Shown here piece after piece: positions 1 through 36,405 of a stretch of 36,473 nucleotides of DNA. This DNA comes from a virus, in IMG/VR virus record IMGVR_UViG_3300017971_000530, positions 1 to 36,473 of that record; one strand, 5' to 3'. Numbering within the stretch: position 1 is the first letter of the stretch; each line of letters begins with the position of its first letter. The position numbers and the translations under genes are program-made. Below the pieces are notes generated by a model. The model was given only the letters and a program-made list of their open reading frames with translations. It was not told the origin of the DNA and searched no databases.

Positions 1-63
1 ACCACAATTTTTATAGGACAAAATATCAGATTTTTGGTAAAATCGTACTATATTACACCATGA
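1..63 (+). CDS. 3' part of a 27-aa ORF that spans the contig ends
   Basis: If the last base is joined to the first, the ATG at 36453 reads through seven codons, crosses the junction in frame and continues through twenty codons to a TGA at 61-63. That TGA overlaps the ATG of the HNH gene (60-62) in the ATGA arrangement used throughout this genome. The HNH gene has no ribosome binding site of its own, so translational coupling to this ORF would explain its expression. The peptide is short, basic and unlike anything I recognise. It may be only a leader peptide. The reading is seen in sequence; circularity is inferred. Confidence 0.5.
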   Translation, partial: TTIFIGQNIRFLVKSYYITP

Positions 64-425
64 AACACCAAACCTTTAAGCCTAAATTGCCAAAACGCAG
101 GGTAATATACAAACCGCCAGCAGACCCTAGATATTTAAGCGCTCAATATAAACGCGCAAAGCGTTTAAGAAGTTCCGACACGTGGAAAAAAATCCAACGC
201 GAAAAGATACAACGTGACCCAGTGTGTGAGTGGTGCGGAATTAAACACGCAGAGGAAGTCCACCACATTGAAGGCGTAACAAAGGCACCGGACAAATTTA
301 ACGAGCCGTCAAACCTTATGTCAGTGTGCAAGCGTTGTCATGTTCTGATTGAGGGCGCGATTAAGAGAGGGATTGATATTGTGGCAATGAAAAAGGAGAT
401 GAACAACCATGCCCGGGAACAGTAA
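60..425 (+). CDS. HNH endonuclease, packaging-associated
   Basis: This 121-aa protein has a compact HNH nuclease motif. Cysteine pairs C56/C59 and C90/C93 should bind zinc, and VHHIEG (residues 67-72) holds the catalytic histidines, followed by a conserved Asn near 85. The N-terminal 50 residues are strongly basic. HNH genes placed directly before terminase are known in HK97-type phages, where the HNH protein acts with terminase in genome cleavage during packaging. The position here fits that role. There is no good ribosome binding site before the ATG, which overlaps the stop of the short ORF crossing the contig junction. The last 17 bases overlap the small terminase gene. Confidence 0.9.
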   Translation: MKHQTFKPKLPKRRVIYKPPADPRYLSAQYKRAKRLRSSDTWKKIQREKIQRDPVCEWCGIKHAEEVHHIEGVTKAPDKFNEPSNLMSVCKRCHVLIEGAIKRGIDIVAMKKEMNNHAREQ

Positions 426-885
426 CAGCGGACGAAAAGCAAACCCCCTTGAAATACAGGCGGCAAAAGGTGACAAACGGGCAATGAAAAAGCTTGAAAA
501 CAGCCTTATCCGCGTTGATGCAGAGCTGACATGCCCGGAATATTTGGACGAAATAGGACAGGAATATTGGCATTATATTTACCCTATGTTATACAATGCC
601 CGCGCAATCTCCGCAACCGAGGCGCATGGACTTGCAATGCTTTGTCAAAAGTATTCCGACTGGTGGGAAGCAAAAGAAAAATGCCAACAGGAAGGGAGAT
701 ATATTGAGCTTATGGACAGAACCGGTAGTGTTTATCATCGCAAAGCACCCTGGGCGATGGACGAGAAAGACGCTTATGATCAATACTGGAGAACTGCAAA
801 AGAGTTTGGGCTTACTCCTGCGACAAGATCAAGCGTGAGACCATTAAGCGCAGACAAGGAAGATGAAGAGGACTGCATAACGTGA
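409..885 (+). CDS. terS: Terminase small subunit, P27 family
   Basis: This 158-aa protein begins with the glycine/serine/lysine-rich leader MPGNSNSGRK typical of P27-type small terminases, followed by a helical body (LTCPEYLDEIGQEYW onward) and a C-terminal part containing LTPATRSSVRPL, a conserved signature of this family. The small subunit binds the packaging start site and loads the large subunit. The ATG at 409 has AAGGAG at 393-398. The gene lies between the HNH nuclease and the large terminase and overlaps both. Family assignment rests on these signatures and on context. Confidence 0.9.
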   Translation: MPGNSNSGRKANPLEIQAAKGDKRAMKKLENSLIRVDAELTCPEYLDEIGQEYWHYIYPMLYNARAISATEAHGLAMLCQKYSDWWEAKEKCQQEGRYIELMDRTGSVYHRKAPWAMDEKDAYDQYWRTAKEFGLTPATRSSVRPLSADKEDEEDCIT

Positions 886-2477
886 GCTTTTGGCGCGAAC
901 CAATACAAGGATTTCCGAGAGCATACGACCCTTGGCGGGATGCTGGTGACTGTAGATTTGACGAGGAAACAGCCGAGCGTGTATGCAACTACTGGGAAAG
1001 CACTTATTCACTTAAAGACGGCAAGTTTGAAGGGATGCCGTTCAAGCTTCAAAAGTGGCAACGGCAGATTTTAGGGCATTTATTCGGTTGGAAAAGACCG
1101 GACGGAACGCGCAGATATAGAACGCTTTTTCTTTACATACCAAAAAAAAATGGGAAAACGCAGTTTGGGGCAGGACTTGGACTAACGCTTTTAACAGCAG
1201 ACGGCGAACAGGGTGCGGAAATATATAGTTGTGCAAGCGATTCGGAGCAGGCTAAGATCATTTATGATGCTGCGAACCAAATGTTAGAGCACAGCAAAAA
1301 GCTAAAGAGCATGATTAAAAATTACAAGGGCTGGAAGGTGCTTGAATACGGCAAGCGCAACAGCCGTTGGAAAGTGCTTTCAAGCAGAGCGGACAGTAAA
1401 CACGGTCCGAACGTCCACGGCCTGCTGATTGACGAATTGCACACACAGAAAGATAATGAACTTGTCGAGACGTTGGAAGCCGGGACAATCAGCAGGGCGC
1501 AACCGCTTGTAATCAAAATGACAACAGCAGGGTTCACAGGTGACACGCCATGCAATCAAGAGTTGGAATACGGGCGAGGCGTTAGGGATGGCAAGATAGC
1601 CGACCCATACTACATGCCGGTAATCTTTGACGGGCAGGAAGCAGACAGAGAGGATCCGGGGCGGTGGAAAGAGCCGGACTTTTGGCCATTGGTAAATCCT
1701 TCATTCGGGATTACAGTAAGAGAAGATTATTTTATTCGTGAGGTCAATAAATGCAAAGTGAACCCGATACATGCCGAAGCTGTCAAGCGGTTACACCTAA
1801 ATATACAGACAGACGTGGTGACAAGCTGGCTTGATTTGGCATCATGGAAGGATTGCGAGGGCGAAATAAAGCGGGATGGTGTATGTTTTGGGGCGCTTGA
1901 CTTGGCAAATACAACAGATATTAACAGCTTTACAATGTTTTGGCCGGAAACAAACAGCATTGAGACCCGCTTTTGGGTACCATTGGACACGGCAAACAAG
2001 CGTGCTGAGTACATTTTATGGAAGGAAAACGGGTATATTAAGGTAAATCCTGGACGAACAAGTGACTATTCTATCATACGAAACGACATAAAAAGCCTTG
2101 TCCAACAGTATAAAATACGTGCAGTTGCCTTTGACCCTTGGAACGCCACACATATTGCCACAGAATTAAGCGATGAGGACGGGGTTAACATGGTGGAGTT
2201 TAGGCAGGGCTATGTTTCAATGAATGCACCGGCTAAAGAGTTTGAGCGGTTGATACTGAACAAAGACATAACCCACGGCGGGAACCCGTGCCTTACTTGG
2301 ATGGCGGGGAACGTTGCAGTTAAGTGCGACCCTAGCGGAAATATCAGACCTGTAAAGCCGGGGCGGAACAGCACAAAAAAGATTGACGGCATCGTCACTT
2401 GTGTTATGGCGGTGGGACTTGCAAACGCAGACCAAACAGAGGAAAGGCCGGACACCCCGGCAATAGTATGCTTATGA
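882..2477 (+). CDS. terL: Terminase large subunit (ATPase and nuclease)
   Basis: This 531-aa protein is the packaging motor. The N-terminal ATPase has a Walker A-like loop PKKNGKTQ at residues 87-94 and a Walker B strand ending in LLIDE around 181-185. The C-terminal nuclease starts around residue 337 with FGALDLANTTD, which supplies the first metal-binding aspartates, and continues with AVAFDPWNAT around 420. Length and order match the HK97-type terminase (Terminase_1 family). The start codon is GTG at 882, overlapping the small-subunit stop as GTGA. The stop overlaps the next small gene as ATGA, so the packaging genes look translationally coupled. Confidence 0.97.
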   Translation: MSFWREPIQGFPRAYDPWRDAGDCRFDEETAERVCNYWESTYSLKDGKFEGMPFKLQKWQRQILGHLFGWKRPDGTRRYRTLFLYIPKKNGKTQFGAGLGLTLLTADGEQGAEIYSCASDSEQAKIIYDAANQMLEHSKKLKSMIKNYKGWKVLEYGKRNSRWKVLSSRADSKHGPNVHGLLIDELHTQKDNELVETLEAGTISRAQPLVIKMTTAGFTGDTPCNQELEYGRGVRDGKIADPYYMPVIFDGQEADREDPGRWKEPDFWPLVNPSFGITVREDYFIREVNKCKVNPIHAEAVKRLHLNIQTDVVTSWLDLASWKDCEGEIKRDGVCFGALDLANTTDINSFTMFWPETNSIETRFWVPLDTANKRAEYILWKENGYIKVNPGRTSDYSIIRNDIKSLVQQYKIRAVAFDPWNATHIATELSDEDGVNMVEFRQGYVSMNAPAKEFERLILNKDITHGGNPCLTWMAGNVAVKCDPSGNIRPVKPGRNSTKKIDGIVTCVMAVGLANADQTEERPDTPAIVCL

Positions 2478-2620
2478 AAGATCACACAAAAAAAATGATT
2501 ATGTATTACGGAAGCATTACAATAATCGGCGCCGGAATTGCTACATGCTGGACTTTATCAGCATGGGGAATTGTCCCGGTATGTCTTGGCGCAGGAATTT
2601 TAATAGATTTGTTTATTTAA
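2474..2620 (+). CDS. Small membrane protein
   Basis: This 48-aa product starts MKDHTKKMIMYYG and then has a long hydrophobic region (SITIIGAGIATCWTL, then WGIVPVCLGAGILIDLFI). That could form two short membrane helices or one hairpin. The ATG at 2474 overlaps the terminase stop as ATGA; an in-frame ATG at 2468 is an alternative start. Small hydrophobic proteins between terminase and portal occur in other siphoviruses but have no assigned function. I do not recognise a family. Confidence 0.6.
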   Translation: MKDHTKKMIMYYGSITIIGAGIATCWTLSAWGIVPVCLGAGILIDLFI

Positions 2621-2624
2621 ATAT

Positions 2625-2653
2625 TTGCATATTCGAATAAACGGATATATTAA
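2625..2653 (+). promoter_or_regulatory. Possible sigma70-like promoter before the portal gene
   Basis: TTGCAT at 2625-2630 and TATTAA at 2648-2653 are separated by 17 bases in the only noncoding gap of this block. Transcription would start near 2660, which would leave the portal ATG at 2663 almost leaderless and favours the ATG at 2690. The hexamers match consensus only moderately. Confidence 0.35.
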
Positions 2654-2689
2654 GCCAAAGGCATGTTGCAACATGGAGCCTTATTAAAA

Positions 2690-4225
2690 ATGTTTTTGAC
2701 ACAAAGCCGAAGCCTTGAGAACCCGAGCACCCCGCTTTCAAGCGGTGGCGATGATTTAGGCATTACAACCGATTCTGGGGAGCGTATAAATAAGACACGC
2801 GCTTTGCAATACTCACCGGTATGGCGTGCTGTAAACCTTATTTCATCGACAGTCGCAAAGATTCCTTGCGATATCTATAGGACTGTGAAAGAGGGCAAAG
2901 AGAGAGACTTTAACCATCCAGCTTACAACCTGCTGAGATGGAAGCCGAACGACGAACAGACGGCTTATTACTTTTTCCAAACAATGATGCAAAACGTTTT
3001 GCTAGAGCCGGGGAACTCATACGCATACATTGAGCGCGACGGAGCTGGAAGACCCACACAACTAATCTATCTTGAACCGGACAAAGTAACACCAGTACGC
3101 TATAATGGCAAACTCTATTACATATACGGCAACTATGACCCCGATCAGAACGCAAACACGCGAGGGTTAAACCGCCTTGATAAAACCGACGTTTTGCACT
3201 TTAAAGGCATGGGCGACAACGGTTTAACCGGTTTTTCAGTGCTTGCATACGCTCGAAACTCCATTGCAATGGGGAGCGGGGCGCAGAAATACAGCAACAA
3301 ATATTTTGCAAACAACGCTGAACCGCGTGTAGTGCTTGAATATCCCGAATGGATGGATCAAGAAAAGATTGAAGCCATCCGGGGCGCGTGGAATTCCATG
3401 CATAAAGGGCTTGACAACATCCACAAAACCGCCATTTTACAGGGTGGAATGAAAGCAAATACACTTTCAATGTCTGCACGTGATAGCCAGCTAATCGAAA
3501 GCTTGGACTTTTCCATTAAGGATGTTGCGAACTGGTTTGGTGTTCCCCCTCATAAGGTTGGCGATTCGTCCCGGACTGCTTACAATTCGTTGGAACAGGA
3601 AAACCAAAGCTTCCTGGATGATACGATAGACGTTTGGTTTGTTATGATTGAGCAGGAATGCCGGGACAAACTTTTAACCGAAGCGGAGAAAGAAAACAAC
3701 ACACACGCAATTGAGTTTAACCGTGCTGCACTTGTCCGAGCTAACCTTATCCACCGGACAACATATTATAGGGCGGCTCTTGCTGGACATCCTTGGGCGA
3801 CTGTTGACGAAGTGCGAAACGCCGAAAACATGAACGGTGTGGGACTTGACACAATCATTGCGCCGTCAAACAACTTTGGAGAACCGGAGGAAACCGGACA
3901 GGAAACAAGCCCGGGCGAAGAAGACGAAAGCCGGAGCATTGACACGGATGGCATAAAAGAGCACGCATTCAACGCCGTGCAGGATGTCTGCACGCGAATG
4001 GAAAAACGCTTAAAATTTAACTTTGACGCGAAGATGAAAAAGCGTGGCCGGAAACATATTGCAACGGTTAGAAAAGAATCGATTGCCGAGCAGGATGCAG
4101 TAATCCGCGAGGCTTTAACGCCGACAGTAAGAACACTGTGTGCAATAACCGGAACAGACGAAAACGAAGCATTGACAGAATGTCTTGAACAGATCCACCA
4201 AGTAATAGAGGATACTGACCAATGA
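2690..4225 (+). CDS. Portal protein, HK97 family
   Basis: This protein of about 511 aa forms the portal ring through which DNA enters and to which the tail attaches. RSLENPSTPLS near the N-terminus, YSPVWRAVNLIS and the long C-terminal segment GVPPHKVGDSSRTAYNSLEQ are hallmarks of HK97-type portals. After residue about 410 the protein becomes acidic and low in complexity (EPEETGQETSPGEEDES), followed by a charged helical tail. I chose ATG 2690 because GGAG lies 11 bases upstream. ATG 2663 is in frame, would add nine residues, and has no spaced ribosome binding site. The stop overlaps the protease start. Confidence 0.95.
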   Translation: MFLTQSRSLENPSTPLSSGGDDLGITTDSGERINKTRALQYSPVWRAVNLISSTVAKIPCDIYRTVKEGKERDFNHPAYNLLRWKPNDEQTAYYFFQTMMQNVLLEPGNSYAYIERDGAGRPTQLIYLEPDKVTPVRYNGKLYYIYGNYDPDQNANTRGLNRLDKTDVLHFKGMGDNGLTGFSVLAYARNSIAMGSGAQKYSNKYFANNAEPRVVLEYPEWMDQEKIEAIRGAWNSMHKGLDNIHKTAILQGGMKANTLSMSARDSQLIESLDFSIKDVANWFGVPPHKVGDSSRTAYNSLEQENQSFLDDTIDVWFVMIEQECRDKLLTEAEKENNTHAIEFNRAALVRANLIHRTTYYRAALAGHPWATVDEVRNAENMNGVGLDTIIAPSNNFGEPEETGQETSPGEEDESRSIDTDGIKEHAFNAVQDVCTRMEKRLKFNFDAKMKKRGRKHIATVRKESIAEQDAVIREALTPTVRTLCAITGTDENEALTECLEQIHQVIEDTDQ

Positions 4226-8270: not shown

Positions 8271-8281
8271 GAGTAATTACA

Positions 8282-8701
8282 ATGAGTTTAGTAGTTGAAG
8301 GTCATGGATTTAGCGTTTCTCACGCAGGGGTTTCTATCACACAGAACCCGATCAGTATCGAGATCCCAGGGTTTACCCGCGCGGAACTCGATAGAACCAC
8401 ACAGGGCAATACAGCCGTAAAAACCGGACGTGTTGCAAAGCTTCGCGCATACGAAAATTTCACCCACACATACCCGCACGATCAGTCAGACATCGCCGCG
8501 TGGGAAGCTTCAAGTGGCAGTGCATTGCAGACCATTACATTCCCGGATTCTCTCGGAACCTATACGGTTTACTGCGAAGTGCTGAGCGTTGGAAATGTGG
8601 GTGAAGAAACAGACAACCGCCCGACTTATGAAGTGACCTTTAAAGTCACCAATCTGAACGGCACAACCGAAACGGCTCCTTCATTCTCGGCAGGAAGCTA
8701 A
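8282..8701 (+). CDS. Major tail tube protein
   Basis: This 139-aa product is beta-rich, with Gly, Thr and Ser abundant, and has TAVKTGRVAKLRAYENFTHTYPHDQSDIAAWEAS and a C-terminal YEVTFKVTNLNG strand. It sits between the tail terminator and the assembly chaperone, the fixed position of the tube gene in siphoviruses. It has a clean GGAG ribosome binding site and short spacers on both sides, as expected for a highly translated gene. The function is inferred from position and composition; 139 aa is at the short end for tube proteins. Confidence 0.78.
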   Translation: MSLVVEGHGFSVSHAGVSITQNPISIEIPGFTRAELDRTTQGNTAVKTGRVAKLRAYENFTHTYPHDQSDIAAWEASSGSALQTITFPDSLGTYTVYCEVLSVGNVGEETDNRPTYEVTFKVTNLNGTTETAPSFSAGS

Positions 8702-8729
8702 ACAATCCAATAGGTGAAAGGGATAGACA

Positions 8730-9008
8730 ATGACAAGCAAAGAAAAACTACTCGCAACGAAACCGAAGCTTATTAAACGAACTATTCAAGGCACAGAGGT
8801 TTATTATAAACCAATGAGCCGAAAAGATTTTTTTAAGCTTTTGGACGACGACAACGGCGACAAGATTGCGATCACTGAATGTCTTTGCAATAAAGACGGT
8901 TCGCAAATGTTTACTTTTGAAGAAGCACAAAACCTTTTAATGCCTGTTTTTAAGGAACTGGTACAAGAAGCGCTGCGCATCAACGGAGTAACCCCAGCGG
9001 GAAACTGA
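8730..9008 (+). CDS. Tail assembly chaperone, short form (gpG-like)
   Basis: This 92-aa product lies between tube and tape measure. It contains KRTIQGTEVYYKPMSRKDF and ends FKELVQEALRINGVTPAGN. Short and frameshifted forms together chaperone the tape measure during tail assembly in lambda-like phages. The slippery heptamer GGGAAAC at 8999-9005 sits on the last two sense codons, directly before the TGA, and a -1 shift there opens a further 103 codons. AGGTGAAAGGG upstream of the ATG serves as ribosome binding site. Confidence 0.82.
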   Translation: MTSKEKLLATKPKLIKRTIQGTEVYYKPMSRKDFFKLLDDDNGDKIAITECLCNKDGSQMFTFEEAQNLLMPVFKELVQEALRINGVTPAGN

Positions 9009-9316
9009 CATTAACCCCGGATCGCCTGTTAGACTATCGTATAGCAGGCGAGCTTGGGGTCAATCCCGATTCGCTGGATGATCTTATAACAGCGAGGCAG
9101 ACAGATGAATACAGACAGTATTTTTTATGGCAGGACGAGCGAAGGGATAAGACAGATTATTACCTTGCACAGCTTGCCGGATTCGCAAGTCAGAAGCCGC
9201 GCTTTTACGTTAAAGACTTTTTCGCCCCGTCCTCAATTGATAAGGCCGGACATAGAAAGATACTCTCCGCGAAAGAAGCGGCTAAAATAACGGCGGCAAT
9301 GTATGGCAAAGCTTAA
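8730..9316 (+). CDS. Tail assembly chaperone, -1 frameshift fusion (gpGT-like)
   Basis: After the slip at 8999-9005 the -1 frame continues from CTG at 9005 to TAA at 9314-9316 without interruption. It adds 103 residues, giving about 195 aa in total. The extension reads LTLTPDRLLDYRIAGELGVN, then FLWQDERRDKTDYYLAQLAGF, and ends KEAAKITAAMYGKA. It has no start codon or ribosome binding site of its own at its 5' end, and it overlaps the tape measure start by 14 bases. This matches gpG/gpGT organisation, where the longer form recruits tail tube subunits. Confidence 0.85.
8999..9005 (+). other. Programmed -1 ribosomal frameshift site GGGAAAC
   Basis: The zero-frame codons are GCG GGA AAC TGA. The heptamer fits the X XXY YYZ rule exactly, so both tRNAs can re-pair after slipping to GGG AAA. 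The stop codon follows immediately, which often increases frameshifting. Confidence 0.85.
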
Positions 9317-10847
9317 AGTATGGCTAACAGCAGAGACTAAACAGTTTAGCCGTGCAATGAAACGCGCGGATAAGCAGATTGGCAAATGGGCACGCGAGGC
9401 AAAGCGATATGCCGCGGTCGGCGGTGCTGCGGTTGCAGCTCTTGGTGTCCAATCCGTTCGAGCTTTTTCAAAACAGGAAAACGCCGTTAATTCCTTAGCG
9501 TCTGCATTGGCAACAAATGGGGATGCTGTAAACACACTTCTTCCAAAATATGAAAAGTTTGCAAGTCAAATACAAAGTCAAACAACTTTTGGTGATGAAG
9601 CTATTTTAGCTCAAATGGCAATGATACGAAATTTAGGTGTTATGCCGGACAAAATGGAGGAAGCGACTAAAGGCGCTATAGGATTAAGCAAGGCTCTGGG
9701 ACTTGATTCAAATGCGGCAGCAAGATATACAGCGCTTGCAATGCAGGGTGAATACACAATTCTTCAAAGATATGTTCCAGCACTGCGAACGGCGACAACT
9801 GCGGCAGAAAAGCAAGCAATTGTCACCGATTTAATGAACAAAGGCTATCAGCAGGCACAGGAGGAAGCAAATACAACCGCAGGCAGATTAACACAGCTTA
9901 AAAATGCCTATGGAGACGTGACCGAGGGCATAGGGCAAGTAATAACAGAAGTATTAACGCTTGAAGGAGGTGCAGAAGGTCTGACAAAAAAAATGTCAGA
10001 TATGGCCGAAACTATTAAAAGCAATGCACCGCAATGGGCTTTTATGTTTAAGTCAATGTGGACAGAGGCAAAGTTTGCATTTAAAAAAGCCTGGACGGTT
10101 GCAAGCGGGCTTATTGAAAATATAGGTACAGGCATTCTTGTTGTAACGCAAAATATAACAACGTCTTTCAAGTGGGTTGCAAAAAACTGGCGCGAAATAC
10201 TTTTCGGCATGTATAAATTTTCCGGTGAAACATGGAAAGCAATAGCAAAAGCGTTTGCAGAAACAATGTTCGCCGGGATAAGGATTGTCGGGCGCCAGTT
10301 TGAAGACATGTGGACAGCAATTAAAAAGCGTGACTTTAAAAGCATTGCAGCCGCTGCAAATATTGGCGACGACATATTAGAACAATTTAACGTAATAAAG
10401 TCAAGTTGGAAAGATGTTGTAAGTTCTGTTTCTGCTGATTTGGAAATTGCACCGCCTGTTTTTAGTGTGCCGGAATACAGAAACATTGTTAAAGATGCTG
10501 AAAAAATAGACGCTGACAAAGAAAAACGACTTGCCAAACTCCGCGAACAGCTAATGAAGAAGCTGACAAAACAGGAAGCAGACGAAAAAGCAAAGCAGAT
10601 AATGGCAACGGCTCAAAAGGAGCGCGAAGAAACGCAGGAAGACACGATAGCGACAGCACAGAGACAACGTGAAGAAACTTTAAGCGATCAGTTTTTGCGT
10701 ATTGGCGGTATTGTCGGAGGCCGTGCAACTGAACAGGAAACGACTAACGTTTGGCTGGAACGGCAGACAAGCTACCAAAAGCGAATCGCAATGGGTATAA
10801 CAGAACTTGTTTCACTAAGACAAACACAGCAACCGGTGTTCCCATAA
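9303..10847 (+). CDS. Tape measure protein
   Basis: This 514-aa protein sets tail length. It begins MAKLKVWLTAETKQFSRAMKRADKQIGKWA, has a short hydrophobic stretch (AAVGGAAVAALGVQSV) near residue 40, then the conserved tape measure region LTQLKNAYGDVTEGIGQVITEVL near 195-220. The C-terminal part is long and coiled-coil (DKEKRLAKLREQLMKKLTKQE and following). At about 0.15 nm per residue this predicts a tail of roughly 75-80 nm, short for a siphovirus. The ATG overlaps the chaperone frameshift product; the stop overlaps the next gene as TAATG. Confidence 0.93.
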   Translation: MAKLKVWLTAETKQFSRAMKRADKQIGKWAREAKRYAAVGGAAVAALGVQSVRAFSKQENAVNSLASALATNGDAVNTLLPKYEKFASQIQSQTTFGDEAILAQMAMIRNLGVMPDKMEEATKGAIGLSKALGLDSNAAARYTALAMQGEYTILQRYVPALRTATTAAEKQAIVTDLMNKGYQQAQEEANTTAGRLTQLKNAYGDVTEGIGQVITEVLTLEGGAEGLTKKMSDMAETIKSNAPQWAFMFKSMWTEAKFAFKKAWTVASGLIENIGTGILVVTQNITTSFKWVAKNWREILFGMYKFSGETWKAIAKAFAETMFAGIRIVGRQFEDMWTAIKKRDFKSIAAAANIGDDILEQFNVIKSSWKDVVSSVSADLEIAPPVFSVPEYRNIVKDAEKIDADKEKRLAKLREQLMKKLTKQEADEKAKQIMATAQKEREETQEDTIATAQRQREETLSDQFLRIGGIVGGRATEQETTNVWLERQTSYQKRIAMGITELVSLRQTQQPVFP

Positions 10848-14772: not shown

Positions 14773-15268
14773 TACAACAGTAAACGTACAGGAGCAGAAC
14801 ACGCAGGTTAATGTAACCGGCGCAATTATTGACGCTGGGGCAAGTGGTGTGACAAGCTTTAACACCCGAACCGGCGCTGTAACATCACAAACCGGCGACT
14901 ACACACACGCACAAACAAGCAACCGCGATGCCGTAGACAGCCACCCCGACAGCGCAATTAGCTCTCCGGTTGGCTACGATGCTTCGGGAGACAACGGGGC
15001 GCTTGTCTACAGCGATGCACGGCGCGACATGTACAACGACTTGGGCTCAGCGTCAACCCACACAATCAGCAGTGTTACCGGAATTAGTTACGGCGATGAT
15101 TTTAGATACTGGCTCAAAACAAGCAACGCAGATTTAACCCTAACCCTTCCGACCAGCACGACAAACATTTCCGGCGCGTTGACGGCCAATAGCGTGTGGA
15201 TTTTGTTAATTATCACTGCCGACCCTGCTGGCGGGTTGCGCATCTTATCAACAGCGGAGGCGAGCTAA
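14765..15268 (+). CDS. Tail fibre protein with FNTRTGAV motif
   Basis: This 167-aa protein contains GVTSFNTRTGAVTSQTGDYT at residues about 28-47. That sequence is a widespread phage fibre motif found at the start of receptor-binding fibres. The rest is Ser/Thr/Asn-rich, ending in a hydrophobic strand pair (SVWILLIITADPAGGLRIL). I chose ATG 14765, seven bases before the previous stop; the upstream in-frame start lies inside the preceding gene. Confidence 0.75.
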   Translation: MADTTVNVQEQNTQVNVTGAIIDAGASGVTSFNTRTGAVTSQTGDYTHAQTSNRDAVDSHPDSAISSPVGYDASGDNGALVYSDARRDMYNDLGSASTHTISSVTGISYGDDFRYWLKTSNADLTLTLPTSTTNISGALTANSVWILLIITADPAGGLRILSTAEAS

Positions 15269-15942
15269 TGAGCTGGGCGGGAAATAATTGCTTGATGACA
15301 TCACCGGTGGGGGGCTTAATGCCACCAATAACAGACGGGCTTGTCCATTGGCTTCCGTACACAACGAACGGTAGCTATCGCGATGGCGTAACTGGAACAG
15401 ATATAGGCTCGCTTGTGAACGATGCTTATGTAGGCGGTGATCCAATTGGGCTATACGGTGACGGAAGCGGCGACTATCACCTATTTAATAATTGGTGGGC
15501 CGGTCTTGACGCGTATTCACTCGTCCTAAGGTGTAGACGATCCACCACAAACAAAGGGGTTTCATTAACAGGTAATGCGTCTCAGCAAACTGGAATAGTG
15601 TTGACAGATACCGGACACCTGTTTGCTGGCACAAATAATTACCGAATTTTTAAATTATCAATTGGTGCTGGTTTGGATAATGTTTACGGCATGAGCTACG
15701 ACAAAAACGAAGATGGAGACATTTTAAACAAAATACAGATGTACTTGGACGGATCACAAATAACCGGAGTGACATCGCAGGGGACAACCCCTCAAACTGT
15801 ACCAAATGTGACTGCAATAATAGGGGCATGGATTAGCCAAGGATTATATTTTAGCGGATCAATAAACCATGTTTTGCTCTACAATCGCGCATTGACATCA
15901 ACTGAACATGCAACCATTACAAGCTGGATTGTAAACAACTAA
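15268..15942 (+). CDS. Receptor-binding protein with LamG/ConA-like lectin domain
   Basis: This 224-aa protein opens with a short leader and then a concanavalin A-like (LamG) fold: GLVHWLPYTTNGSYRDG, a central VYGMSYDKNEDG strand, KIQMYLDGSQITG and the highly typical end SGSINHVLLYNRALTSTEH. Such domains bind glycans, so this is the best candidate for the host-binding tip. It overlaps the previous stop as TAATG. The glycan target cannot be deduced. Confidence 0.8.
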   Translation: MSWAGNNCLMTSPVGGLMPPITDGLVHWLPYTTNGSYRDGVTGTDIGSLVNDAYVGGDPIGLYGDGSGDYHLFNNWWAGLDAYSLVLRCRRSTTNKGVSLTGNASQQTGIVLTDTGHLFAGTNNYRIFKLSIGAGLDNVYGMSYDKNEDGDILNKIQMYLDGSQITGVTSQGTTPQTVPNVTAIIGAWISQGLYFSGSINHVLLYNRALTSTEHATITSWIVNN

Positions 15943-17857: not shown

Positions 17858-17932
17858 TTGCACTAGTACAATATGGGGTTAAGTTAATAGTATCGAAAGG
17901 GCAATAAAGCCTAACAAAAAGGAAAAGATAAG
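17858..17932 (+). promoter_or_regulatory. Repeated promoter/leader element, copy 1
   Basis: TTGCACTAGTACA starts at 17858, TAAGTTAATA ends at 17889. TTGCAC and TAAGTT are 16 bases apart and can serve as -35 and -10; a downstream TTAATA/TAGTAT is an alternative -10. TGCACTAGTACA is a near-perfect palindrome centred on ACTAGT. T-rich tracts lie upstream, like an UP element. The leader has GGGC (17899-17902) pairing with GCCT (17909-17912) around AATAAA, then AAAAAGGAAAAGAT before the ATG at 17933. Two more copies occur at 22257 and 29606. Confidence 0.85.
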
Positions 17933-22224: not shown

Positions 22225-22256
22225 AAAAAAAGTGATAAAAAGATTAAAAAAGGGCT

Positions 22257-22332
22257 TGCACTAGTACAATGACACGCTAAGTTAATATTATCAAGCGGGC
22301 AATGAAGCCCAATATAAAAAGGAAAAGATAAC
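22257..22332 (+). promoter_or_regulatory. Repeated promoter/leader element, copy 2
   Basis: TTGCACTAGTACA starts at 22257 and TAAGTTAATA ends at 22288, the same 32-bp length as copy 1, with nine unrelated bases between. A/T tracts lie upstream. The leader hairpin is GGGC (22298-22301) and GCCC (22308-22311) around AATGAA, fully paired. AAAAAGGAAAAGAT then leads to the ATG at 22333. Confidence 0.87.
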
Positions 22333-25759: not shown

Positions 25760-26007
25760 TGAAACACAAATTAACGCCAGCCATAAAAGTAGAAAATGAT
25801 ATTTTCACTGGTTACAGCCATTCACAGGCTATCAGTAGAGTGCCGAGAGGAGTGGATATAGAAAAAAGAAAGGATGGCTTTGTAAACGATTGTGGTCATT
25901 TTTTTACACGATCAGAAGCTTTTGACTATGCAGAAAGACATGGGTTGTTAAAGGATATATATGCAGATGGAAACTGGAAAATGTTAAATAGTTATATGTT
26001 GGCCTAA
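25759..26007 (+). CDS. Hypothetical phage protein (F-x-x-R-x-E-A type)
   Basis: The 82-aa product contains GFVNDCGHFFTRSEAFDYA, which resembles short phage proteins with a G-x-F-x-x-R-x-E-A core of unknown function. The ATG overlaps the previous stop as TAATG. AAGGAGATTGAA is the ribosome binding site. Confidence 0.62.
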   Translation: MKHKLTPAIKVENDIFTGYSHSQAISRVPRGVDIEKRKDGFVNDCGHFFTRSEAFDYAERHGLLKDIYADGNWKMLNSYMLA

Positions 26008-26038
26008 CTTGACACCCGCAAACAAAGGAGATTGAAAG
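26005..26038 (+). repeat. Duplicated intergenic cassette, copy 1
   Basis: The 34 bases before ATG 26039 are the same, except for one base, as the 34 bases before ATG 26328. They start TAACTTGACACCCGC and end GGAGATTGAAAGAT, the ribosome binding site. A partial third copy starts at 26693. Confidence 0.9.
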
Positions 26039-26296
26039 ATGAAAACTTTTAAATGTAAAAACGCATTTTTGCAAACTGACGGAAACTTTGCATGTAGTAA
26101 AAACGCTTTTGACCAGTGCGACTTTGACCCAAATCCACACAAAGGTCCATGTTGGGGAAACGTCACAAACTGTAAGAGATATAATTATGTCTATGCAGAG
26201 GCGAACCGTCGACCAGTAGACCCTCCTAAGTGTAAGCATGGTCGATCAATGGGGGGTGGGTGTGATAAATGTGGGCGTGGTAGGCGGTGTTCTTAA
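26039..26296 (+). CDS. Cysteine-rich small protein, 85 aa
   Basis: The protein carries ten cysteines, including CDKCGRGRRC at the C-terminus and KCKHG before it, and a basic overall charge. Metal binding is likely. It sits between two copies of the duplicated spacer, as if inserted as a unit. No family recognised. Confidence 0.63.
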   Translation: MKTFKCKNAFLQTDGNFACSKNAFDQCDFDPNPHKGPCWGNVTNCKRYNYVYAEANRRPVDPPKCKHGRSMGGGCDKCGRGRRCS

Positions 26297-26327
26297 CTTG
26301 CCACCCGCAAACAAAGGAGATTGAAAG
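26294..26327 (+). repeat. Duplicated intergenic cassette, copy 2
   Basis: It differs from copy 1 in one base (TTGCCACCC in place of TTGACACCC). It provides the ribosome binding site for the gene at 26328. Confidence 0.9.
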
Positions 26328-26684
26328 ATGGACTGTAAGCGATGCGAACAACTGAAAAAAGCAAACTCTGCTGTTTATGATTCAAGCAGAAAATGCGCGT
26401 TCAAACTCGGTGAATTTCACGCTGAAAATTGGAACTGCGGAACCATGCAGGAGCTTCGCGAGATCGTTTTCGACAGCGATATTGAGGTTTATTCAAATGA
26501 CGAAAACGCTGCAATTCTTGTTGCACCGGAAAAAACGGAAAGCACACATGTATTTCTTGCATGGTACAAGCACCGTGGGAAAACATCAATGGCACAGGAA
26601 TGGACTATTGACGATGTGTTAAAGCCGTTGACGCTTAAAACTGCCGAGGCTGTAATTGAACTTTACCTAGATGGTAGACGATGA
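26328..26684 (+). CDS. Hypothetical protein, 118 aa
   Basis: The N-terminus has MDCKRCEQLKKANSAVYDSS, a CxxC followed by a helix. The centre is alpha/beta with SDIEVYSNDENAAILVAPEK and the C-terminus contains WTIDDVLKPLTLKTAEAVI. The CxxC could be a metal site. No family recognised. Confidence 0.65.
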   Translation: MDCKRCEQLKKANSAVYDSSRKCAFKLGEFHAENWNCGTMQELREIVFDSDIEVYSNDENAAILVAPEKTESTHVFLAWYKHRGKTSMAQEWTIDDVLKPLTLKTAEAVIELYLDGRR

Positions 26685-29605: not shown

Positions 29606-29679
29606 TTGCACTAGTACAGTTTTGTGCTAAGTTAATATCAACGGGCGGAGAAAAGCCCGGTAACAAAAAGGAAAAGATT
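29606..29679 (+). promoter_or_regulatory. Repeated promoter/leader element, copy 3
   Basis: TTGCACTAGTACA starts at 29606 and TAAGTTAATA ends at 29637, again 32 bases. The leader hairpin is CGGGC (29642-29646) and GCCCG (29655-29659), a five-pair stem with a different loop (GGAGAAAA), so both arms have changed together compared with copies 1 and 2. AAAAAGGAAAAGAT leads to ATG 29680. Confidence 0.87.
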
Positions 29680-30671: not shown

Positions 30672-30848
30672 ATGGAAGAAAAAAGCAAACAACTAAAACA
30701 GATACGGGAAAAGCTTGGAATGAGCCAGCCCTCTTTTGCGCATGCTTTAGGGCTTGATGCAGGCGGGCAGTACATTTCAAAGCTGGAAACAGGCAAGCGC
30801 AATGTCAGCGATGAATTGTTGGCAAGGGCTAAGGAGATGGTGAAATGA
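30672..30848 (+). CDS. XRE-family HTH regulator, 58 aa
   Basis: A short ORF with a complete helix-turn-helix: KQIREKLGMSQPSFAHALGL, then YISKLETGKRNVSDELLARA, the standard XRE fold in under 60 residues. It ends with the TGA overlapping the next ATG. As a second DNA-binding protein in this genome, it could act on the repeated promoters or on the palindrome at 29995. It is a minimal regulator without an oligomerisation domain. Confidence 0.82.
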   Translation: MEEKSKQLKQIREKLGMSQPSFAHALGLDAGGQYISKLETGKRNVSDELLARAKEMVK

Positions 30849-31234
30849 ATAGAGAAATTTTGTTTCGGGGCAAGCGGATTGATAATGGGGAGTGGGTATA
30901 TGGGGGACACGCAAAATGGAAAGATGGAGCTAGATTATCTGATGTGATATTACAGACTGGTGACGGTTTGCTAAAGGATGACATGACAAAGTGGTATGTA
31001 GACCCAACAACAGTTGGCCAATACACCGGACTAAAAGACAAGGACGGGGTGAGGATTTTTGAGGGGGATGTTTGTGTCCAAAAAGGAGAGCGGTTTGTCG
31101 TAGTTTATGAGTTGGACAGGTTTAAGGCAAAATATGGACAAGATGATTTCGGGCCACTGTTTCTTCAGCTTGGAAGCCGTGGGCAGGCAGAAAAAATCGG
31201 CAACATCCACGACAACCCGGAGCTGGTGAAATGA
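30845..31234 (+). CDS. YopX family protein
   Basis: This 129-aa protein has the YopX signature: REILFRGKRIDNGEWVYG at the start, DPTTVGQYTGLKDKDGVRIF and the C-terminal IGNIHDNPELVK. YopX proteins are frequent in phages; the function is not established. It overlaps the HTH gene by four bases and the next gene by four. Confidence 0.92.
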   Translation: MNREILFRGKRIDNGEWVYGGHAKWKDGARLSDVILQTGDGLLKDDMTKWYVDPTTVGQYTGLKDKDGVRIFEGDVCVQKGERFVVVYELDRFKAKYGQDDFGPLFLQLGSRGQAEKIGNIHDNPELVK

Positions 31235-32213: not shown

Positions 32214-32912
32214 ATGAAGTTGTCAATCCTAATGTGCGCGCTCACGTCTCGCGACTGGGTGCCTTTATACCGCAACCTGCAAAGACAGTGCAAGCGTGTC
32301 GGAAACGCTGAAATACTCGTTTTCTGCGACGGCGGAACGATCACCAGCGGGGAAAAACGCAATATATTAACATCAAGCGCAGGCGGTGAATACATTGCCT
32401 TTGTTGACGACGACGACTTAATATCTTCAAGCTATGTATCAGCGATTGTAGCAGGATGCAACAGCAATAAAGACGTAATCACTTTTGACTGTGATATGAC
32501 AATTAACGGCACCGAAAAACAGCGCCAGTCATTTACGCTTGCAGGCGACGACCGGACGCATAAGGGCGGGGTGAAGCAAATGACAGCTAACCACCTTTGT
32601 GCATGGCATGCAGATATTGCAAGATCCTGCAAATGGGATAACGGGCTTGGTTACGGCGACGACCAAGTATGGTACAAATCGCTTTTGAAAGCTTATGATT
32701 CTTTGACAGAAACACATATCGACGAGGTGCTTTATCACTACAATTTCAACCATTCCACAACAGCAAATCAAACAGCAGAAAGGGTAATTCATGCAAAGCT
32801 AAGATATAAAAGCGGAGGCTATGTTTACAGACGTACAGACGGAAGTATTTTCACCACAAACGGGCCTAGCAATAAAGCGGGGTCATTTAAGGGTGTAATT
32901 CACATAAAATAA
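32214..32912 (+). CDS. Glycosyltransferase, GT-A fold (GT2-like)
   Basis: This 232-aa protein begins MKLSILMCALTSRDWVPLY, the nucleotide-binding start of GT2-type enzymes, with FCDGGTITSGEKRNIL near 37-52 and the metal-binding motif FVDDDDLIS at 63-71. A downstream NGLGYGDDQVWYKSLL (about 141-156) resembles the ED/DDQ acceptor motif. It should transfer a sugar from a nucleotide donor in the cytoplasm. It heads the modification cassette and is three bases from a short upstream ORF. Confidence 0.85.
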   Translation: MKLSILMCALTSRDWVPLYRNLQRQCKRVGNAEILVFCDGGTITSGEKRNILTSSAGGEYIAFVDDDDLISSSYVSAIVAGCNSNKDVITFDCDMTINGTEKQRQSFTLAGDDRTHKGGVKQMTANHLCAWHADIARSCKWDNGLGYGDDQVWYKSLLKAYDSLTETHIDEVLYHYNFNHSTTANQTAERVIHAKLRYKSGGYVYRRTDGSIFTTNGPSNKAGSFKGVIHIK

Positions 32913-32922
32913 AGGCGACACA

Positions 32923-33819
32923 ATGACAAAGAACCAATGTTTAAAGAATATGAAGGCTCCCGGAGACATGCGAGGCACAGCCATCTACGGCGTTATGCAG
33001 ATCCTTGTAACAAACCGATGCGACGGCGGGATGTGCTCAAACTGCACGCAGATGCTACCATACCAGCACGGACACGAGGACATGACACCGGAAAACTTCC
33101 TGCTTGCTTGTGAGTCACTTATTGACTATCCGGGCGTTGTCGGCATGATGGGCGGAAACCCCTGCCTGCACCCCCAGTTTGACGAGCTTTGCGATATTAT
33201 GGCGGAGGTATTGCCGAACAGGGCAAAGCGTGGAATATGGACAAATAACTTAAACGGACATGGCAAAATTGTAAACGAAACATTTGGGTATTACAATTTT
33301 AACGTACACGGAAACGCAAAAGCAGGCGAAGAGATGCGCGACACGTGCAAACAGGCAAAGGTATGGGGCGAAGAGTTGCACAGCCTGCATGGTGCGGTTA
33401 TGGTGGCAATGTCAGATCTTGTGCCGGATAAGGATACACGCTACAAGATTATTTCAAGCTGTGATATTAACCAGCGGTGGAGCCCGGCAATCGTTCAACG
33501 CAACGGCAAACTAAAGGGCTTTTTCTGTGAAGTTGCAGCGGCTTGGAGCGCGGTTTATAACGACAAAGCAGGCGTTAAGATTGTGCCGGAATGGTGGAAG
33601 ATGTCTATGGATAGGTTTGCCACACAGGTTGAGCGGTATTGTCACGGTTGCGGATGCGCTTTGCGTTTGAAAGGTCACTACGACTACGAAAAGAAAGACG
33701 ATGTAAGCCATAGCACACAACAGCTTGCAGAACAGGCAAACCGCGAACACGTTAACCACTCGGAACGTGACAGCGAGGCGCGGGAACTTACAGACTATCA
33801 ACGGTTGAGGGGTGAATAG
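32923..33819 (+). CDS. Radical SAM protein with extra C-terminal cysteines
   Basis: This 298-aa protein has a radical SAM cluster motif with an unusual spacing, C33-x4-C38-x2-C41 (NRCDGGMCSNC), followed by GMMGGNPCLHPQF (75-87), the counterpart of the GGEP motif. FGYYNFNVHGNA and a later FFCEVAAAW are also consistent with the family. Additional cysteines at 180, 202, 240, 243 and 245 could hold an auxiliary Fe-S cluster, as in SPASM or related enzymes. It should generate a 5'-deoxyadenosyl radical; the substrate is unknown. It sits between a glycosyltransferase and a sulfotransferase-like gene. The last 45 residues are charged and probably disordered. Confidence 0.85.
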   Translation: MTKNQCLKNMKAPGDMRGTAIYGVMQILVTNRCDGGMCSNCTQMLPYQHGHEDMTPENFLLACESLIDYPGVVGMMGGNPCLHPQFDELCDIMAEVLPNRAKRGIWTNNLNGHGKIVNETFGYYNFNVHGNAKAGEEMRDTCKQAKVWGEELHSLHGAVMVAMSDLVPDKDTRYKIISSCDINQRWSPAIVQRNGKLKGFFCEVAAAWSAVYNDKAGVKIVPEWWKMSMDRFATQVERYCHGCGCALRLKGHYDYEKKDDVSHSTQQLAEQANREHVNHSERDSEARELTDYQRLRGE

Positions 33820-34350
33820 ATGAACGTGTTTATTTTTGGAACCGGCAGGTGTGGCACAGTCTCAGCAGAGGCCGCGTTTTCATTTGCCGGAAACTACACA
33901 ACGGCACACGAAAGCCTGTGCAGTCTGCATCATTACCCGGACAACCATATTGAGGTTAACCCACAGCTTAGAATGGTTATGCCTTATTTGTTAATACAGC
34001 ACCCGGACGCGCTGTATATCTGGCTTAAGCGTGACCGGCAAAGGGTCATAGAAAGCTACGAAAGGCTAGACCGTGGCAACTGGCTCAATCACTGGTGGGT
34101 AATGAACAACAGCGTCAAGCCGAACAGGAGAATTAAACAGGCTGAAATAGCCGTTGATTACATGCTGATGCAGTGCGAAAAGGCGTTTAATCTCGTGCCT
34201 AAAGCGCAACGGCTGGAAGTTGATATAAAGGACTATGCCGACTGGTTCCCGCAGGTTTGGGACAGGATAGAGGCAGCGGGCAACATTCAGCAGGGATTGA
34301 ATGTGTTTAAACATCCACGCAATACAAGCAAGCAAAGGGGCGATGTATGA
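33820..34350 (+). CDS. Sulfotransferase-like P-loop protein
   Basis: This 176-aa protein opens with MNVFIFGTGRCGTVSAEAAF, where GTGRCGT (7-13) corresponds to the 5'-phosphosulfate-binding loop of PAPS sulfotransferases. LYIWLKRDRQRVIESYERL (65-83) matches the 3'-phosphate-binding R-D-x-R-x-x-x-x-S segment, with R71 and S79. It is shorter than most cellular enzymes but covers the core. It would add sulfate to a glycan or other acceptor. GAGGGG upstream gives a good start. Nucleotide kinase is the alternative but lacks support. Confidence 0.75.
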   Translation: MNVFIFGTGRCGTVSAEAAFSFAGNYTTAHESLCSLHHYPDNHIEVNPQLRMVMPYLLIQHPDALYIWLKRDRQRVIESYERLDRGNWLNHWWVMNNSVKPNRRIKQAEIAVDYMLMQCEKAFNLVPKAQRLEVDIKDYADWFPQVWDRIEAAGNIQQGLNVFKHPRNTSKQRGDV

Positions 34351-34598
34351 ACCCGCTTAAATGGATATATCTTTGGCTGGACAAGAAATACAACAAGCGT
34401 CTTTTGCTTTATCCGGCAGGCGATGGAACGATTACTATTCAAACCGTGGCAAATTGGCACGAATCGAGGAAGGCTCTTGATTCCGTCGGGAAAATGTTTG
34501 TTGTAACTGGAGTAAATGTTGGTGAAGCATGTGAAGGCATGTACAAAATGAAAATCACGTTTGAAGGTAAAGATAATATTGCAAGGGGTATCAAATGA
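34347..34598 (+). CDS. Small protein inside the modification cassette, 83 aa
   Basis: The product (MNPLKWIYLWLDKKYNKRLL, TITIQTVANWHESRKALDSV, ending KMKITFEGKDNIARGIK) has a basic amphipathic start and a beta-rich body. It overlaps both the sulfotransferase-like gene and the next glycosyltransferase by four bases, so it is co-expressed with them. No family recognised. Confidence 0.62.
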   Translation: MNPLKWIYLWLDKKYNKRLLLYPAGDGTITIQTVANWHESRKALDSVGKMFVVTGVNVGEACEGMYKMKITFEGKDNIARGIK

Positions 34599-35245
34599 TC
34601 GGCATAACTGTTTCTGTCGGGTATGCGGATAAGCTACGTCAAACGCTTTTGACGTGGCAGAAAGGGCTTGACCTTGTTTATGTCATAACTGACGATAACG
34701 ATAATGACACGGCAGAGGTGGCAGAAGTAATCGAAGCCGTGACACACAGAACAAGCGTATTCTATGACAATGGGGCAACATTCAACAAGGGTGGAGCTAT
34801 GGACGAGCTTATTAAGTTCTTTCCTGTTATGGAGTATTCTGGGTGGGTTTGTGTGTTTGATGCTGACATTCTCCCCCCTGTAAATTGGCATGAGTGCATG
34901 TCAACGCTTGAAGTTGGCAACCTATACGGAGCACCACGTTATCAAGACGGCGTGAAGTATATCCCGGATCCGCCTTACGAAATGCCAGGATACTTTTGGA
35001 TATTCCACACCGACGACCCGCATTTGCCACATAACCCGACGTTTACAAGTTGGAAGCACGCCGGGAACTATGACACTGTATTTAAAGACAACTGGCCAGC
35101 AGAAAAGCGGGTTAAGTTGCCACTGCGATTAAACCACATAGGACAGCCGGGGCGCAACTGGTGGGGTATTGGCAACGAGGGCAAGATGAAGGATATGTAT
35201 ATGGAACGGGCGATTAAACGCGGGTATGAGCATGAAAGGGTTTGA
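34595..35245 (+). CDS. Glycosyltransferase, GT-A fold
   Basis: This 216-aa protein starts MIGITVSVGYADKLRQTLLT and has the DxD motif VFDADILPP at 87-95, which binds the nucleotide sugar through a metal. VYVITDDNDNDTAEV forms the early beta strand and donor pocket. The C-terminal half (GYFWIFHTDDPHLPHNPTF, LPLRLNHIGQPGRNW) supplies acceptor binding and a conserved His. It is the second of three glycosyltransferases in the cassette. Confidence 0.8.
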   Translation: MIGITVSVGYADKLRQTLLTWQKGLDLVYVITDDNDNDTAEVAEVIEAVTHRTSVFYDNGATFNKGGAMDELIKFFPVMEYSGWVCVFDADILPPVNWHECMSTLEVGNLYGAPRYQDGVKYIPDPPYEMPGYFWIFHTDDPHLPHNPTFTSWKHAGNYDTVFKDNWPAEKRVKLPLRLNHIGQPGRNWWGIGNEGKMKDMYMERAIKRGYEHERV

Positions 35246-35247
35246 TA

Positions 35248-35436
35248 ATGGTAGGCAAAGGCGATAAAGACAACAGAAGCCCAGACTTTGAAGCACGGCG
35301 TAAGTGTCCTGTGTGGGATAAGATTGGGCCGGATAAGAAGCTAAAAGGCAACGCGGGTGTAATACATATAGCGGGTGGTGAACGGATGGATGTTACGAGC
35401 TGGGAAGTTTTAGAGCCAAAGGAGCAAAGCAAATGA
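35248..35436 (+). CDS. Small basic protein, 62 aa
   Basis: The ATG at 35248 follows GAAAGGG, just after the previous stop. MVGKGDKDNRSPDFEARRKC and a short beta C-terminus (GVIHIAGGERMDVTSWEVL) show no known family. It ends in KEQSK, encoding the next ribosome binding site. Confidence 0.6.
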   Translation: MVGKGDKDNRSPDFEARRKCPVWDKIGPDKKLKGNAGVIHIAGGERMDVTSWEVLEPKEQSK

Positions 35437-35669
35437 AAACAAGCGAAATACAATGGGTTCCAGCAAAAAGCCCAAATATTGACGATTATGCATGGGGCGA
35501 TATTTGTATCGATAGTTTAGGTAATATGATATTGATAGGGGATACCATTGACGGCAGTTTTGACGATGGTGGGTGTGGCTGTTGTGCTAAGGATATTACC
35601 AATAATCCTATTGTCAAATATGCATCCATTTTAACTGATGACAGAGGACAAAAGGAGCAAGACAAATGA
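35433..35669 (+). CDS. Small cysteine-containing protein, 78 aa
   Basis: The product contains GCGCCAKD near residue 47 and a short beta sheet (SLGNMILIGDTIDGSFDDGG). It ends in KEQDK, again matching the next ribosome binding site. No family recognised. Confidence 0.6.
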   Translation: MKTSEIQWVPAKSPNIDDYAWGDICIDSLGNMILIGDTIDGSFDDGGCGCCAKDITNNPIVKYASILTDDRGQKEQDK

Positions 35670-35821
35670 AAAAGAAACCGGAACCGCAAGTAATCTATGT
35701 AGAACGGGAAGCAAAGAAGAAAAACGGATGCCTGCAAACGACTGAGAGCGGATGTATGGTTATCATTTTGTTTGCATGTGCATTTGCTTGGATTGTTTAC
35801 AAGATGGTGACAACGCCATGA
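35666..35821 (+). CDS. Small membrane protein, 51 aa
   Basis: A basic N-terminus (MKKKPEPQVIYVEREAKKKN) precedes one membrane helix (MVIILFACAFAWIVYKMV). AAAGGAGCAAGACAA carries the ribosome binding site. The TGA overlaps the start of the last glycosyltransferase, so it may anchor cassette enzymes at the membrane; this is speculative. Confidence 0.65.
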   Translation: MKKKPEPQVIYVEREAKKKNGCLQTTESGCMVIILFACAFAWIVYKMVTTP

Positions 35822-36405
35822 ATAAAGTAATTATAGGATGTGTAGCCGTTGGCATAGACAGGAAGATTGTAGAACGCTTTAGGAAGCATGATAGCATGGC
35901 ATCTATACTACTTGTCGAGACACCGGAACAAAGCGAGCGATACAGCCCTTCACGCGCTAACAACGAATGGATAAGGCGGACATGTGAAGAACACCCAGAC
36001 GCTGTTATAGTCAAGACCGATGTGGACTGCGTGTTAAGTGAGAGCTTTATAGACGAGTGCAGGACGTTGCAGGACAAGCATGCGCTGTTCCCGTTTATTA
36101 ACTTTGAACAGCGGGAAGGAGGATATAAGCTTGACATCAATCCTTGTGGCACTTGCGCTATGCACGCTAAGGATTGGCAGGCAATGAACGGCTACGACGA
36201 GAGGATGTGGGGACACGGCAGAGAAGACGGGGATCTGCTTGACAGGTGCTTGAATGCTTTTATGTCAGTCAAGAGGACACGCGGACATGTGAGACACTTA
36301 TGGCATGAACCGAGGTTGTCTGAGTGGTACCCGAGACGACGCGAGGAAAATATGTTGATACATGATGAACAAGGGCTTTGGAGTTGTAAGTCTTGGGGCT
36401 TGTGA
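35818..36405 (+). CDS. Glycosyltransferase, GT-A fold (galactosyltransferase C-domain-like)
   Basis: This 195-aa protein has a donor site IVKTDVDCVLS at 64-74 with a DxD-type TDVD, and a region GYDERMWGHGREDGDLLDRC at 125-144 that matches the G-x-D-E ... G-W-G-x-E-D-x-D-L segment of Glyco_transf_7C-type enzymes, which holds the catalytic acidic residue. It is small but has both core elements. I chose ATG 35818, overlapping the previous stop; the in-frame start upstream lies inside the preceding gene. It is the last complete gene of the window. Confidence 0.82.
   Translation: MNKVIIGCVAVGIDRKIVERFRKHDSMASILLVETPEQSERYSPSRANNEWIRRTCEEHPDAVIVKTDVDCVLSESFIDECRTLQDKHALFPFINFEQREGGYKLDINPCGTCAMHAKDWQAMNGYDERMWGHGREDGDLLDRCLNAFMSVKRTRGHVRHLWHEPRLSEWYPRRREENMLIHDEQGLWSCKSWGL

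Follow-up and report, generated by a model that had tools for sequence, protein, structure and literature searches.

To our knowledge, the cultured phages in which glycosylation of the particle itself has been shown are few; Che8, Corndog and Myrna are examples. The virions of mycobacteriophage Che8 are described as glycosylated (Freeman et al. 2023, via PMC12363180 and PMC11256854), and gp110 is reported to be essential for capsid glycosylation. The closest described radical S-adenosylmethionine (rSAM) enzymes are BtrN (butirosin), which converts 2-deoxy-scyllo-inosamine to a ketone and holds its auxiliary cluster with four cysteines where MoaA uses three (PMC9012708), and SpeY (spectinomycin), the structure of which is titled 'Twitch Radical SAM Dehydrogenase'. 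Glycosyltransferases (GTs) and rSAM genes have been reported in marine phages by metagenomic surveys, as gene classes only (PMC7029224, PMC7150976); the present work shares both gene types with these surveys, the comparison being one of gene class and not of rSAM family. Here, we analyse a cassette of nine genes, all on the + strand at positions 32214-36405, at the right end of the IMG/VR virus record IMGVR_UViG_3300017971_000530, which comes from a tailed phage; 'the window' denotes the whole stretch of 36,473 bases. Five of the genes encode enzymes: a GT2-like glycosyltransferase (A_GT), a Twitch-type rSAM enzyme, a small sulfotransferase (ST) of the type that uses 3'-phosphoadenosine 5'-phosphosulfate (PAPS), a second glycosyltransferase of predicted GT-A fold (E_GT) and a GT7-like enzyme (Table 1). 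This GT/rSAM/ST set is a recurrent module that points to glycan chemistry, a conclusion that is strongly supported, and we think it reasonably probable that the cassette is a late-expressed operon for glycan assembly and tailoring that glycosylates virion proteins.

A sequence-only reading of the window had listed three GT-A-type GTs (32214, 34595 and 35818), an rSAM protein with extra cysteines (32923) and a sulfotransferase-like protein (33820), with most genes joined by four-base overlaps, and had seen in them the means of making and decorating a glycan or modified product through sugar addition, radical chemistry and sulfation. All five enzyme open reading frames (ORFs) were found at these positions, and the assignments hold for every gene tested: the three GTs by PHROG, by predicted fold and by Glyco_transf_7C, respectively, the rSAM enzyme by profile (BtrN) and by fold (SpeY), with its cysteines invariant, and the ST by a Sulfotransfer_3 match below the cut-off and homologues above it. 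Overlaps of four bases with the preceding gene occur at six junctions (starts 34347, 34595, 35242, 35433, 35666 and 35818); A_GT is separated from the rSAM gene by a ten-base gap, and the rSAM gene is followed by the ST gene at 0 bases.

The recurrence of the set was examined from the rSAM gene outwards. A single scan, run with an rSAM profile of 15 rows, returned at least 239 relatives in IMG/VR viral contigs; the best 80 of the 239 were taken and combined with hits from earlier scans, giving 50 loci that are non-redundant at 85% identity and may be biased towards relatives of the window. ORFs were called automatically and clustered to define the neighbouring gene families. Of the 50 loci, 46 have a GT-family gene fused to the rSAM gene or no more than 4 kb from it, and 31 have a gene for a methyltransferase, sulfotransferase, epimerase or the like. 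Three of the four loci with no GT have the rSAM gene near a contig end (L002, L034 and L042) and the fourth (L013) is a region of phage-like character that includes a tail-sheath-like gene. E_GT, present in 24 of the loci, is the commonest rSAM partner. Searching with E_GT itself gave 19 loci, 15 of them with an rSAM gene; among the remaining four, L016 and L022 start inside a CgeB-like GT gene. The ST query gave 18 loci, seven with an rSAM gene; an eighth locus, L110, is cut at the contig end close to its ST but includes both A_GT and E_GT. L106 carries A_GT-rSAM-ST-E_GT in the same order as the window, with a four-base overlap at each pair, and its rSAM protein is the sister of that of the window on the tree (support 99/85). 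In L107 the order is rSAM-A_GT-ST-E_GT, flanked by capsid and tail genes and by the tape measure. Because these genes are found with one another in many phage contigs, we regard the cassette as a recurrent module rather than a chance cluster. The sequence-only reading had named independent occurrence of the five genes in relatives as the outcome that would speak against it; the order kept in L106 and the pairs that recur elsewhere argue against such independence.

Four diverse members of the rSAM family had no match in 50,697 deposited phage records, and there is therefore no experimental phage at hand; the module is present in hundreds of uncultivated phage contigs. Literature searches for the gene combination returned mentions of gene classes only. 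Some modules contain two or more rSAM-family ORFs, as in L104 (7932-8948 and 9622-10434) and L090.

On its own, the rSAM protein matches Pfam Radical_SAM with E = 0.006, and a profile built from four sequences found no match in the PDB; with the 15-row family profile, the best PDB sequence match is BtrN (E = 2e-6). The AlphaFold model (pLDDT 89.7) was compared by Foldseek and matched SpeY with E = 2.6e-8 and a TM-score of 0.57, and BtrN with E = 2e-4; peptide epimerases and cross-linking rSAM enzymes match it far more weakly than SpeY. The SAM-cluster cysteines C33, C38 and C41 are invariant in all 50 full-length relatives, as are four further cysteines (C180, C202, C240 and C243 in window numbering) and the residues N125, N127, H129, H156, W186, S187 and E203. 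The four further cysteines are probably the ligands expected of a Twitch auxiliary [4Fe-4S] cluster. BtrN and SpeY thus resemble the phage enzyme in fold, in the three SAM-cluster cysteines and in a four-cysteine auxiliary cluster; the phage proteins differ in having only ∼15-17% identity to them, in being phage-encoded and in lying next to, or fused to, GTs. The CX4CX2C spacing also sets the phage proteins that have it apart from BtrN and SpeY. It was considered as a family-wide oddity and rejected: CX3CX2C is found in 43 of the 50 and CX4CX2C in seven, including the window.

In fusions, the GT can lie on either side of the rSAM domain: L079 encodes exostosin GT47-rSAM, and L044 and L012 encode rSAM-GT2. 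The former is a phage-contig ORF (7026-8879) with an exostosin-type GT47 domain (Pfam E = 2e-24), and an ORF of L075 (7012-8862) has the same length and the same rSAM position. The L012 fusion (7956-10151) belongs to an Acetobacteraceae metagenome-assembled genome, apparently outside a prophage. Such cellular relatives are rare (two of 200 genomes in that family), and one scan of a genome collection, the peptide patterns of which were narrow, gave two rSAM loci. Since SpeY and BtrN are the nearest matches, the auxiliary cluster has four cysteines and GT fusions exist, the likeliest substrate would be a sugar being built into the glycan and the likeliest reaction the oxidation of an alcohol to a ketone.

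A_GT is the only cassette enzyme with relatives in cultured phages: single-protein searches of INPHARED with the other four gave no match. In addition to the PHROG glycosyltransferase family given in Table 1, it matches phrog_14775 (E = 4e-23), and it is related to the GT domain at the N-terminus of Che8 gp108 (E = 9e-16, 32% identity over 174 residues). It adjoins the rSAM gene also in L015, L023, L025, L103, L106, L107, L108 and L117. The C-terminal domain of gp108 is a Methyltransf_24 domain, and the same Pfam family forms a separate gene in many of the rSAM modules. The layouts are also alike: in Che8 a series of small GT genes stands at the right genome end and finishes with an HNH gene, and the terminase is at the left; in the window the HNH gene is at the left end. 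The Che8 run differs from the cassette in having no rSAM gene. Che8 gp109 and gp110 were compared as possible counterparts of E_GT and the GT7-like enzyme and rejected, as neither has a homologue in the cassette. Che8 is thus an analogy with one shared enzyme family, and not a system to which the cassette belongs.

E_GT has a weak Pfam match on its own. Its model (pLDDT 84.5) has a GT-A fold resembling SunS and SpsA; a DxD metal motif is present, and D89-x-D91 and the FNKG motif are invariant among relatives. The GT7-like enzyme matches Glyco_transf_7C with E = 1.1e-10 (41.4 bits against a cut-off of 23) and B4GALT1 by sequence with E = 0.0016. Its gene most likely starts at 35818, rather than at 35752 as in the listed ORF 35752-36405.

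The ST matches Sulfotransfer_3 with E = 7e-4 and 20.3 bits, below the Pfam cut-off of 27, and a phmmer search against the PDB gave chance matches only. All nine homologues scanned match Sulfotransfer_3 or Sulfotransfer_4, and those in L106, L107, L116 and L120 exceed a Pfam sulfotransferase cut-off. The window protein has a GTGRCGT loop, R71-x7-S79 and a C-terminal RG; we take the loop to be the 5'-phosphosulfate loop, and R-x7-S the 3'-phosphate-binding element, of PAPS sulfotransferases. It is thus like the enzymes of these two families in its motifs and in the scores of its homologues, and unlike typical members in being short (176 residues) and in its own score. A single-protein search of viral contigs with the ST found nothing. 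An ST-bearing subclade of the rSAM family was considered and rejected, as the label requires seven changes on the rSAM tree compared with 7.7 for shuffled labels. We therefore regard the ST, scattered in this way, as a tailoring enzyme that can be exchanged, much as the Methyltransf_24 proteins of other modules. Small related STs are also found in phage contigs with no rSAM module nearby (L111, L112, L113, L116, L118, L119, L120, L121 and L123).

The setting of the relatives bears on when the module is expressed and on what it acts. Clustering placed TerL, portal, capsid or head-tail connector genes within ∼6 kb of the rSAM gene in 22 of the 50 loci, and PHROG adds a terminase (L044), a portal (L038), a capsid (L079), a tape measure (L091) and a tail-sheath-like protein (L013). 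These structural neighbours belong to several different backgrounds, as might be expected of a late-expressed cargo module. In L106, two genes, the first for a small hydrophobic protein, separate E_GT from TerL and portal downstream. The window has the cassette at its right end; HNH-TerS-TerL occupy its left end, together with protease and HK97-type capsid genes, and replication genes lie near 27-29.5 kb; HNH, the terminases and the portal would follow the cassette if the genome were circular or circularly permuted.

Several genes in such settings encode proteins that the enzymes could act on. A collagen-like gene with Gly-X-Y repeats lies between the portal and the rSAM module in L002 (5822-6610), L004 (5959-7083) and L011 (6199-6987), and its product is a candidate glycosylation substrate. 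The structural region of the window encodes a laminin-G-like protein with a lectin fold (15196-15942; Pfam PF13385), a possible virion substrate; L106 1-492, two genes before the cassette, resembles it by eye only.

The reading that we favour starts from computed data, namely the gene identities, the conserved module, the invariant Fe-S ligands and the structural-operon setting of many relatives, and by analogy takes the virion as the presumed target. On a virion protein, A_GT or E_GT would start or extend a sugar; a further one would be added by the GT7-like enzyme. The 5'-deoxyadenosyl radical of the Twitch rSAM enzyme would then take a hydrogen from a sugar carbon and the auxiliary [4Fe-4S] cluster would accept the second electron, so that a secondary alcohol would become a ketone, as in BtrN and SpeY. 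Finally, the ST would use host PAPS to cap a hydroxyl with sulfate, and the resulting coat would be acidic; both the sulfation and the order of the reactions are predicted from the gene set. Generalizing to the family, we propose more tentatively that the phage Twitch rSAM enzymes oxidize sugars of virion glycans, and that the particles bear phage-made keto- and sulfo-glycans, the products of an exchangeable late-operon module in which GT, rSAM, methyltransferase and ST genes are combined. Virion glycosylation by phages is already known as a kind; the radical chemistry and the sulfation would be new chemistry, and we know of no keto- or sulfo-glycan chemistry on any virion. Through the module, virion glycan synthesis would gain radical chemistry and, probably, sulfation, and this Twitch rSAM family offers directly testable substrates. 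If the proposal is true, many environmental phages have chemically unusual, possibly negatively charged sugar coats that would influence host binding and recognition as well as the stability of the particle.

Several observations weigh against this reading. The TM-score of the rSAM model to SpeY is only 0.57. Many relatives have no ST, and conservation among them does not extend to the GT7-like enzyme or the small proteins. The cassette has no homologue of Che8 gp110. As the cassette lies at a contig end, its linkage to the terminase rests on assumed circularity or permutation and on the analogy with L106.

The main rival is that, during infection or lysogeny, the operon alters a host surface polysaccharide (lipopolysaccharide, capsule or cell-wall glycan) and blocks the adsorption of other phages, in the manner of superinfection exclusion or serotype conversion. 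Phage GTs are often so read, for example in pelagimyophages (PMC7029224), and small protein h of the cassette has a single helix; we nevertheless consider this unlikely, as family scans of the cassette proteins found neither the GtrA flippase nor the GtrB bactoprenol GT of gtrABC-type serotype conversion, the relatives sit in packaging, head and tail operons, and the Che8 relative of A_GT belongs to a virion-glycosylation gene set. Both targets had been proposed in the sequence-only reading; on the setting, the gp108 relative and the lack of a GtrA-type flippase, virion proteins are the better supported of the two and host surface sugars are not favoured. A second rival takes the cassette as a pathway like those of ribosomally synthesized and post-translationally modified peptides (RiPPs), in which the rSAM enzyme would modify a small peptide encoded in the cassette, such as protein g with its CGCC motif, and the GTs and the ST would then decorate it. 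There are four small ORFs between the enzymes, rSAM enzymes with auxiliary clusters are frequent in RiPP pathways and the top fold match of E_GT is SunS, a peptide S-glycosyltransferase. Such a pathway is improbable because the small proteins are not conserved: at E = 1e-3, none of the loci collected contains a homologue of d, f, g or h, in a search that very short or divergent peptides could escape. The poorer match of peptide-modifying rSAM enzymes and the rSAM-GT fusions also count against it, and virion glycosylation remains the preferred reading. Some phages employ GTs and rSAM enzymes for DNA hypermodification, but that the cassette makes a glycosylated or otherwise tailored DNA base is improbable, because, in agreement with the sequence-only reading, which saw no marks of such a pathway, no thymidylate-synthase-like, hydroxymethylase or base-kinase family was found in the part of the window ORFs scanned, and the genes found alongside in relatives encode glycan GTs, O-methyltransferase-like proteins, epimerases and GT47 fusions. 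Further glycan genes, or genes for DNA modification, could lie outside the contig, which may be incomplete.

Table 1. Genes of the cassette and other features of the window.
Feature	Position	Strand	Evidence or remarks
A_GT, GT2-like glycosyltransferase	32214..32912	+	phrog_8858 E 3e-29; related to Che8 gp108 N-terminal domain
Twitch-type rSAM enzyme	32923..33819	+	CX4CX2C plus C180, C202, C240, C243
Small PAPS-type sulfotransferase (ST), 176 aa	33820..34350	+	GTGRCGT loop, R-x7-S, C-terminal RG
Small protein d	34347..34598	+	Four-base overlaps at both ends; no family match
E_GT, GT-A-fold glycosyltransferase	34595..35245	+	D89-x-D91, FNKG motif; predicted fold
Small protein f, TTG start	35242..35436	+	Four-base overlap; no family match
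Small protein g, CGCC motif	35433..35669	+	Four-base overlap, AAAGGAG ribosome site; no family match
Small protein h, one probable membrane helix	35666..35821	+	AAAGGAG ribosome site, four-base overlap; hydrophobic stretch read from sequence
GT7-like (beta-1,4-galactosyltransferase-type) glycosyltransferase	35818..36405	+	Glyco_transf_7C; WGHGREDGD motif
HNH, small terminase, large terminase, portal	60..4225	+	Opposite contig end from cassette
Promoter-like element, thrice repeated	17858-17889, 22256-22287, 29606-29637	+ (last copy)	Pattern TTGCACTAGTACA-N8-YTAAGTTAATA

Promoter and terminator scans of the window did no better than on shuffles. The repeated pattern in Table 1 has three exact matches in the window and none in shuffles, and its last copy heads the gene block that includes the cassette; it is likely to be a promoter or operator specific to the phage. 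At 26005-26041 and 26294-26330, ahead of two genes, lie copies (97% identical) of a 37-base repeat that ends in a ribosome site and ATG. The window gene at 30845-31234 contains a short conserved DNA stretch that is common to YopX-annotated Vibrio phage genes and to Streptococcus and Flavonifractor phage genes.

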